Shown here piece after piece: positions 36,367 through 62,756 of a stretch of DNA of 64,000 nt. The position numbers and the translations under genes were made by a program. Location of the stretch: positions 62,001 through 126,000 of the forward strand of contig NZ_KE384196.1 of assembly GCF_000424465.1 (NCBI RefSeq), in the 5' to 3' direction. Position 1 is the stretch's first letter. Every line of letters starts with the position of its first letter. Under the pieces are notes generated by a model. That model saw only the letters and a program-made list of their open reading frames with translations, made no database searches and was not told the DNA's origin. Origin of the DNA: Butyrivibrio hungatei NK4A153. GTDB lineage: Bacteria > Bacillota > Clostridia > Lachnospirales > Lachnospiraceae.

Positions 36367-36405
36367 GGCATATAAAAGGCTGAAGTGGTGTGGTTTTTAT
36401 ATGCC
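36367..36405 (+). terminator. Intrinsic terminator of the DJ-1 gene
   Basis: An 11-bp stem GGCATATAAAA / TTTTATATGCC with a 17-nt loop, followed by TTTTT. Confidence 0.8.
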
Positions 36406-36427
36406 TTTTTGACTTAAACTAAGTCTC

Positions 36428-36472
36428 AAAAGCATATAAATGCGCTTGAGCATGAGCTGTTTATATGCTTTT
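36428..36472. repeat. Inverted repeat of the GCATATAAA motif
   Basis: Arms AAAAGCATATAAA (36428-36440) and its exact complement (36460-36472), 13 bp. The GCATATAAA core recurs in both orientations across 36369-36740, including at 36496 and 36591 (CTATATGC), filling the gap between the DJ-1 and chemoreceptor genes. Confidence 0.7.
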
Positions 36473-36668
36473 GCTTCGAGGATTCAGGGAAAAAAGCATA
36501 TAAAATTGGCACAAATCATAAGTTTTATAGGATAGACGTTATCATTTTTAATGCTATAAGCATATGAATCTGCCTGGTATTTGAATATCTATATGCTTTG
36601 AGCTTTTGACCTTTCGAAACTATTTCTGCAAGTCTGTTAAGGAAGATAGAACCTTACGCAAAAAATAA

Positions 36669-36776
36669 GGCAGATATATATAATTTTTGCGAATTTGTGC
36701 CATATAAATGAGACCAACTCTTTGGGCTCATTTATATGTCCGGCACAATCTGAGCTAAAATTATATATATCTGCCT
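36669..36776. repeat. Nested inverted repeat A (108 nt)
   Basis: The outer arms are 20 bp and perfect (36669-36688 with 36757-36776); middle arms TTGTGCC / GGCACAA (36696-36702 with 36742-36748); inner arms CATATAAATGAG / CTCATTTATATG (36702-36713 with 36727-36738). It ends 22 nt before the 3' end of the convergent chemoreceptor gene. No open frame or T-run terminator explains it. Confidence 0.85.
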
Positions 36777-36798
36777 ATATATTTACAGCGTAACCCTA

Positions 36799-52957: not shown

Positions 52958-52974
52958 TTATTTATAAAAGGGAC

Positions 52975-53214
52975 GACCTATATGGCCATTCTTCACGGCC
53001 TGCAGCGACGGTATCAGTTTTGAAATGTTTGTGGTCGGCTGCGCAGTGATTTTCATAATTTTAGAAAACCCGAAAATGCCTCCTTTCGACGTTGCTCAGG
53101 GAAGTCGGCATTTTCGGGTTTTCTAAAATTTGAAAATCATCTTGCTCGTCCGAAAACTGCACATTTTAAAACTGATACCGTCGCTGCAGGCCGTGAAGAA
53201 TGGCCATACAGGTC
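52975..53214. repeat. Nested inverted repeat B (240 nt)
   Basis: The outer arms 52975-53021 and 53168-53214 are 47 nt with one mismatch (A-C). They continue with a 7-bp stem containing a G-U pair (53022-53028 with 53161-53167), then an asymmetric internal loop (53029-53046 and 53140-53160), then a 33-bp inner stem with one bulged T (53047-53080 with 53107-53139) and a 26-nt terminal loop. No gene, T-run terminator or transposase accompanies it. Confidence 0.92.
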
Positions 53215-53267
53215 TGTTGCTTGTTATATGCTGATTTTAGCAGCTACTCATATAATGCAGCAGACCT
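53210..53267. repeat. Hairpin sharing an arm with inverted repeat B
   Basis: Arms 53210-53220 and 53257-53267 form an 11-bp stem (one U-G pair), with inner pairs TTATATG / CATATAA and GCTG / CAGC. The bases AGGTC at 53210-53214 are also the end of repeat B, so the two structures compete. Confidence 0.75.
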
Positions 53268-62148: not shown

Positions 62149-62151
62149 TCG

Positions 62152-62183
62152 AAAGGCATATCGCGATACCGCGGTATGCCTTT
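62152..62183 (+). terminator. Terminator hairpin of the lipoprotein gene
   Basis: A 14-bp stem (62152-62165 with 62170-62183, one U-G pair), loop ATAC, ending in TTT. Its last six bases GCCTTT can pair instead with AAAGGC at 62717-62722, the far end of repeat C. Confidence 0.82.
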
Positions 62184-62722
62184 ACTGTTTCGGGGATAGC
62201 AGCCCTTGGGGAGAGGGATATTTGAGCATTGCGCGAGAGCGTAAAGTTTCATGGGAGCCCGAGATCCTTCCTGAAATTCTGCTTTGAGGCTCTTGTTTGA
62301 CATCCAATCCGCAGGGAATAGGGGGCTACAGGCTTATGTTTTTTCGCAATCACTCCGGCTCACATTTTTATGGGGTTACGACCGTTTTTCTATTATGGCG
62401 CATGTTACGACTAAACTCGCATCCCGATGCCTTTATACGCCCGTGTATGCGGGCTATGACACTTCTTATAAAGGCATCGGGATACTCACACAACGTCTCC
62501 ACATGCGCAGAAAAAACGGTCGTAACCCCATAAAAATGTGGCCTCCCGTGAAATGCTCAAAAACATAAGCCTGTAGCCTCCTATTCCCTGCGGATTGGAT
62601 GGAGTTTTGAGCCGAAAGAATTTCAGGAAGGATCTCGGGCTCCCCATGAAACTACGCGAAGAAGCAGCTCAAATATCCCTCTCCCCAAGGGTTGCTATCC
62701 CCGAAACTGTGGCGGCAAAGGC
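62178..62722. repeat. Giant nested inverted repeat C (545 nt)
   Basis: A near-symmetric rod with stems, outside to inside: GCCTTT / AAAGGC (62178-62183 with 62717-62722); 41 bp (62187-62227 with 62667-62707); 36 bp with one bulge (62245-62280 with 62617-62653); 5 bp GGCTC / GAGCC (62288-62292 with 62609-62613); 43 bp (62301-62343 with 62559-62601); 29 bp perfect (62361-62389 with 62512-62540); 8 bp (62398-62405 with 62501-62508); 17 bp perfect (62421-62437 with 62467-62483); and a small apical GCCCG / CGGGC. Two of the few differences between arms are G-T positions (62202/62692 and 62323/62579), which stay paired in RNA. No gene, transposase or target-site duplication is seen. Confidence 0.94.
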
Positions 62723-62727
62723 CTTGG

Positions 62728-62756
62728 TTGTTAATGATCACTCAGAGGTGTACAAT
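62728..62756 (+). promoter_or_regulatory. Sigma-A promoter of the MMPL transporter gene
   Basis: TTGTTA (62728-62733), a 17-nt spacer, TACAAT (62751-62756), starting 6 nt after the end of repeat C. Confidence 0.65.

Follow-up and report, generated by a model that had tools for sequence, protein, structure and literature searches.

The 545-nt gene-free hairpin that lies between a lipoprotein gene and an MMPL gene in the window (the whole 64,000-nucleotide stretch of Butyrivibrio hungatei NK4A153 analysed here) is probably, with a likelihood that we put near 0.7, a decayed copy of a family of non-autonomous fold-back elements with IS66-type ends, that is, of giant MITEs, the arms of which are kept matched by DNA template switching or conversion. 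According to this reading, an IS66 transposase would have moved the copies in trans, and template switching or conversion during replication would copy one arm onto the other, now and then inverting the interior of the element. Complementarity of the arms would then require no selection on RNA. The junctions A to D that interrupt the palindrome would form the constant parts of the family, probably kept by selection, either because the elements need them to move or because they make such a long palindrome tolerable.

Architecture of the hairpin

An earlier sequence-only reading had described the hairpin and proposed that it be folded on both strands. When this was done for positions 62150-62740, each strand gave a single continuous rod, with a minimum free energy of -393.6 kcal/mol on the plus strand (z -27.2 against dinucleotide shuffles) and -384.1 kcal/mol on the minus strand (z -32.0), and no shuffle of this segment matched the native stability on either strand. 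The rod-forming segment spans 62184-62719 on both strands. Open reading frames within it reach at most 94 aa and overlap one another, none being a plausible gene. The folding and repeat searches confirm the hairpin, which ranks first among the inverted repeats of the 64-kb window (E 4e-101), ahead of the one at 52963-53228 (E 1e-54). The arms recovered by the repeat search agree with the stem lengths given by the sequence-only reading, which were roughly right. The parts of the window copy are as follows.

62152-62183, plus strand: terminator-like hairpin AAAGGCATATCGCGATACCGCGGTATGCCTTT of the lipoprotein gene (inverted repeat I8)
62184-62719, plus strand: whole inserted element, about 536 bp, from comparison with L112 (G004), L113 (G050) and L034/L111 (G069)
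62184-62227, plus strand: outer stem 1, 5' arm, beginning ACTGTTTCGGGG, left terminal repeat truncated
62667-62712, plus strand: outer stem 1, 3' arm, of which about 30 nt survive at the orthologous site of G069
62177-62227 with 62667-62717: outer arm pair in the repeat search, 51 nt, 90%
62228-62252 (5' strand) and 62645-62666 (3' strand), plus strand: junction A
62253-62280 (5' arm) and 62617-62644 (3' arm), plus strand: stem 2; arm pair of 28 nt, 100% (repeat search)
62281-62300 (5' strand) and 62602-62616 (3' strand, GGAGTTTTGAGCCGAAA), plus strand: junction B (including motif search)
62301-62348 (5' arm) and 62554-62601 (3' arm), plus strand: stem 3, grading into junction C; arm pair of 48 nt, 94% (repeat search)
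62349-62360 (5' strand) and 62541-62553 (3' strand), plus strand: junction C
62361-62389 (5' arm) and 62512-62540 (3' arm), plus strand: stem 4; arm pair of 29 nt, 100% (repeat search)
62390-62420 (5' strand) and 62484-62511 (3' strand, CTCACACAACGTCTCCACATGCGC), plus strand: junction D, the most conserved part of the family
62421-62483, plus strand: stem 5 and tip; arm pair 62421-62437 with 62467-62483, 17 nt, 100% (repeat search)
62707-62719, minus strand: right terminal repeat, degenerate, TTTGCCGCCACAG against GTTACCATTCACAG, with 4 mismatches in 14

A test for a retron, or for another hairpin linked to a reverse transcriptase, found no reverse transcriptase gene adjoining the hairpin. Its neighbours are the lipoprotein-like gene, which has no Pfam match, and the MMPL gene.

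A dispersed family of hairpins

The window hairpin is one member of a family of gene-free hairpins, about 230-800 nt long, that is scattered among rumen Butyrivibrio genomes, with copies on contigs C4, C6, C7 and C8 of its own genome. The window DNA used as query found the further places on C4, C6 and C8, each with an inverted repeat of its own; the copy on C6 measures 692 nt, the one on C8 301 nt, and the one on C4 lacks most of its 3' arm. Across the genus, matches were obtained in 5 of 79 genomes with the window DNA as query, in 12 with a diverged copy and in 15 when a short core pattern was used. Among named genomes, a scan with the exact junction B pattern placed the family in Butyrivibrio sp. 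M55, B. hungatei XBD2006, Butyrivibrio sp. LB2008 and one Butyrivibrio MAG. Furthermore, when a sequence model was built from the junction C-D strand, it matched at least 11 places in G003 and at least 11 in G322, a genome from another genus of the same family, and the places examined in G322 share the folding plan; other significant matches of the model were few across 397 genomes of the family and 392 of the order. Exact matches of the junction B pattern in Anaerolineae, Blautia and Thalassomonas, together with three in viral contigs, fall at loci without such a hairpin and were set aside as chance. The core pattern had no match in viral contigs, and no plasmid match was found. For weak R1 matches in G365, G478 and G738, no hairpin was confirmed, and L203 has none. 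The literature search found no paper on such elements in Butyrivibrio.

It is next to inconceivable that the hairpin is a chance or artefactual inverted duplication, produced by an assembly error or by one local duplication. Assemblers do struggle with such hairpins, and contigs of G003 and G065 start or stop inside them (L142, L168, L209, L217, L219, L221), which means that copy numbers are under-counted in draft assemblies. Yet independent assemblies hold orthologous copies whose stems have changed and still pair, several copies lie in G005, a near-finished genome assembled as one contig of 3.55 Mb, and many homologues are dispersed. A lack of homologues, or an assembly or local duplication error, had been named by the sequence-only reading as grounds for dismissing the hairpin; neither applies, since homologues occur at many loci and precise empty sites show real insertions.

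Most copies are intergenic, often no more than tens of bases from a stop codon or just past a terminator. This would suit a composite terminator or an mRNA-stabilising 3' structure selected at gene ends, a reading that we nevertheless regard as very unlikely: orientation to genes varies among copies, presence is patchy among close relatives, and the gene in the window has its own terminator, which G004 and G050 keep at their empty sites. An open reading frame of at least 120 aa crossing the element is absent from most copies, with few exceptions (for example in G050, G049 and G064); the crossing frames of G069_C33 and G049_C26 run in from the flanks.

Several observations concern the surroundings of single copies. 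At L226 1665-2912 (G322, contig C97), two hairpins of about 430 nt in inverted orientation make up a single palindrome of 1248 nt. One orthologous copy adjoins, in the right flanks of L032 and L039, what we take to be a CIRCE-operator-like sequence, TTAGCACTC-N9-GAGTGCTAA. A link with Rpn-type nuclease genes was considered from an open reading frame in L225 that matches Transposase_31; the neighbour in L273 has no match, and the association may be a coincidence.

Insertion and IS66-type ends

Copies of the family insert, as relatives carry precise empty sites and copies occupy many unrelated loci. At the site of G003_C16, the element (TGTTACC...GGTAACA) stands between GAGCTTAACTTTC and ACTTTCCATG, and G065 holds the uninterrupted sequence GAGCTTAACTTTCCATG; the site of G065_C18a is in turn empty in G003. 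Intact copies, three in G003 and one in G006, end in GTTACCATTCACAG with at most one mismatch in 14. With the end set at GTTAC, these four are flanked by the target duplications TTTATAAT (8/8), AAAAATGA (8/8), AACTTTC[T/C] (7/8) and AACG..TC (6/8), scores that control offsets never reach.

The end sequence is over-represented in the genus relative to a reversed-pattern control and occurs there beside IS66-like genes. Proteins encoded beside it gave a weak zf-IS66 match and matched the NCBIfam IS66 transposase model below its cut-off. Related IS66 elements of the genus with similar ends, GTTACAGTTCAGA, carry perfect 8-bp duplications, TGCAAAAG and TCTTACTT (L191, L193). Because the GTTACCATTCACAG ends and the 8-bp duplications are as in IS66, we read the family as non-autonomous IS66-ended fold-back elements. 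Intact copies have both the shared terminal inverted repeat and the 8-bp duplication of an IS66-derived MITE, and the window copy contains no transposase gene.

Of the IS66 genes that go with the exact end sequence, the nearest have just one end on their contig, and GTTAC ends are missing from several copies in G003 and G065. No IS66 transposase, recognised by the IS66 DDE domain, was found in the genome studied here (G000), in G003 or in G065, so that any movement there would have depended on a transposase since lost or on a visiting one. Separately, at L174 616-2310 (G005, contig C4), a caspase-like gene is closely preceded by an IS66-type end, TGTTACTATTCACAG; similar starts recur in several genomes and perhaps belong to cargo-carrying elements.

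History of the window copy

The same lipoprotein gene, terminator-like hairpin AAAGGCATATCGCGATACCGCGGTATGCCTTT and MMPL gene occur without the element in G004 (L112) and G050 (L113), and the terminator-like hairpin thus predates the insertion. In Butyrivibrio sp. M55 (G069), the flanks are 94-98% identical and about 30 nt of the 3' outer arm are kept. From these alignments, the simplest history would place the insertion past the terminator in an ancestor shared by G000 and M55, with most of the element deleted later in M55. At L034 2036-2112 of M55, a 46-nt palindrome, TTTTTGTATCATATGG...CCATATGATACAAAAA, has taken the place of the lost element.

The 30 nt of arm at the M55 site raised the idea that outer arms are copied from host flanking DNA. 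This was ruled out by the empty sites of G004 and G050, which hold no arm sequence, and by the arms of G065_C18a, which are missing at the empty site of G003; the outer stem does not derive from the target site. In the window copy, neither a left terminal repeat nor a target duplication can be recognised, and its assignment to IS66 therefore rests on its relatives. With the left end unrecognisable and the right end degenerate, it appears to be an old, decayed member of the family and is probably immobile.

Maintenance of arm complementarity

The arms are about 99% complementary although stem sequence differs between copies. Both isolated substitutions in the stems of the window copy place G against T, as the sequence-only reading had observed. 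Across 31 copies, 70 isolated mismatches were counted among 7,098 matched positions, comprising 30 G·T, 23 A·C and 17 others. If an RNA were maintained by compensation, G·U should be the preferred mismatch on the RNA's strand; since G·T is about as frequent as A·C, the mismatches are not biased toward RNA, and compensatory RNA evolution was rejected on this ground. The ratio of 30:23 excludes a strong RNA-strand bias and remains compatible with a weak one.

Over 193 stem pairs, the near-identical orthologous copies G000_C6 and G069_C33 differ by exchange of both partners in 15 pairs and by a change on one side in 11. Independent changes would make double exchanges rare, so these counts favour copying from arm to arm. 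Furthermore, the core of G000_C6 is inverted in G069_C33 relative to the shared flanks, and the tip domain of G069_C35 matches that of G069_C33 at 94% when inverted and at 75% when upright. In two published reports (PMC8604942, PMC8794818), template switching between the arms of inverted repeats is described as homogenising the arms and inverting the spacers, and both arm homogenisation and spacer inversion are found here. Judging from these patterns of change, DNA template switching is the process most likely to keep the arms matched; comparable traces would be expected from RecA-dependent conversion or from mismatch repair acting on an extruded hairpin. The earlier suggestion that selection or repair acts on the paired structure holds in its repair half, given the complementarity of the arms despite turnover of the stems, the excess of double changes and the inverted interiors. 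Its other half, a selected RNA fold, is not borne out by the mismatch counts or by Rfam, where no family was matched.

Constant junctions and variable outer stems

All full copies share a common plan that runs from an outer stem through junction A, stem 2, junction B, stem 3, junction C, stem 4 and junction D to a tip, which is short or itself compound. Short copies (that on C8 and its orthologs) have junctions A and B only. The junctions are asymmetric internal loops with short helices; in junction B, CACTGTTTGAC stands opposite GGAGTTTTGAGCC, and in junction D, GACTAAACTCGC opposite GCTCAAACAACGTC. The sequence-only reading held that the loops between stems had diverged freely, which the comparison of the window copy with three paralogs contradicts, as its junctions are 82-91% identical and its long helices 69-71%. 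In the G003/G065 group the junctions are likewise mostly better conserved, whereas the trend is reversed in the copies of G005 and G064. When the A-B pair and the C-D pair were compared as an arm-swapped duplication, scores exceeded those of shuffles in most copies tested, among copies that are related to one another and with one control also raised; the alignments are thus suggestive of C-D having arisen as an arm-swapped copy of A-B.

If template switching acted alone, asymmetric junctions should disappear, yet they persist, which argues for selection on the junctions. Template switching also leaves a second feature unaccounted for. Eight copies of the G003/G065 group have cores that are 91-97% identical, set within outer stems of at least five unrelated classes, each perfectly paired with itself, and two copies in G067, 2.5 kb apart, likewise combine near-identical cores with unrelated, self-paired outer stems. 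These features could fit a new class of mobile hairpins with constant junctions and variable stems, in which a folded single strand of DNA or RNA would be recognised through junctions A-D and the outer stem would be created afresh in many copies by a process that writes both arms at once; we hold this to be possible, though doubtful.

Conserved junctions also bear on a structured non-coding RNA gene family, possibly carried on a mobile element, in which the junction fold would be selected and the stems would covary to keep it. Junctions are conserved above the long stems among copies in two clades, the short helices of junction D covary between lineages, and the architecture recurs in another genus. 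We still consider such an RNA family unlikely, because the isolated mismatches hold no excess of G·T over A·C, an Rfam search gave no match near a gathering score, so that known RNA families were set aside, copies flip relative to flanking genes, and intergenic context differs from copy to copy.

Comparison with known systems

The IS66-ended fold-back family is new as a variant of bacterial MITEs. Like these, its members are non-autonomous, have no transposase gene, carry terminal repeats and target duplications and are dispersed between genes. Unlike them, each element forms, over its entire length of about 230-800 nt, a single palindrome interrupted by four conserved asymmetric junctions, and outer stems are wholly unlike between copies with near-identical cores. 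Near-identical cores within unrelated, perfectly paired outer stems pose a puzzle outside ordinary MITE models. With IS66-family insertion sequences, intact copies share the end GTTAC(Y)ATTCACAG and the 8-bp target duplication, but there are no tnp genes and the interior is unrelated to IS66.

REP, BIME and REPIN sequences are tens to about 100 nt long and tied to RAYT transposases. They and other short bacterial hairpin repeats (PMC3116915) resemble the present family as dispersed intergenic hairpins, whereas the elements described here are several hundred nt long and have IS66-type ends. Template-switching quasipalindromes, as described in two reports (PMC8604942, PMC8794818), share the homogenised arms and inverted spacers; those are short and arise in place, in contrast to dispersed, very long elements with fixed unpaired junctions. 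The orthologous and paralogous copies form a natural series of long palindromes for measuring how arms convert, spacers invert and junctions are retained. In bacteria, perfect palindromes this large are generally regarded as unstable (SbcCD). Despite this, the Butyrivibrio hairpins persist over species-level times in several copies.

A second hairpin family in the window

At least nine more places in the same genome match the hairpin at 52963-53228, and the five copies that were folded have a constant core within unrelated, perfectly paired outer stems. This hairpin represents a second dispersed hairpin family, unrelated-looking and of the same design, which is thus not confined to a single element. 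Two shorter neighbouring hairpins, at 36395-36505 and 36654-36793, have repeated GCATATAAA and TATATATAATTTT stems.
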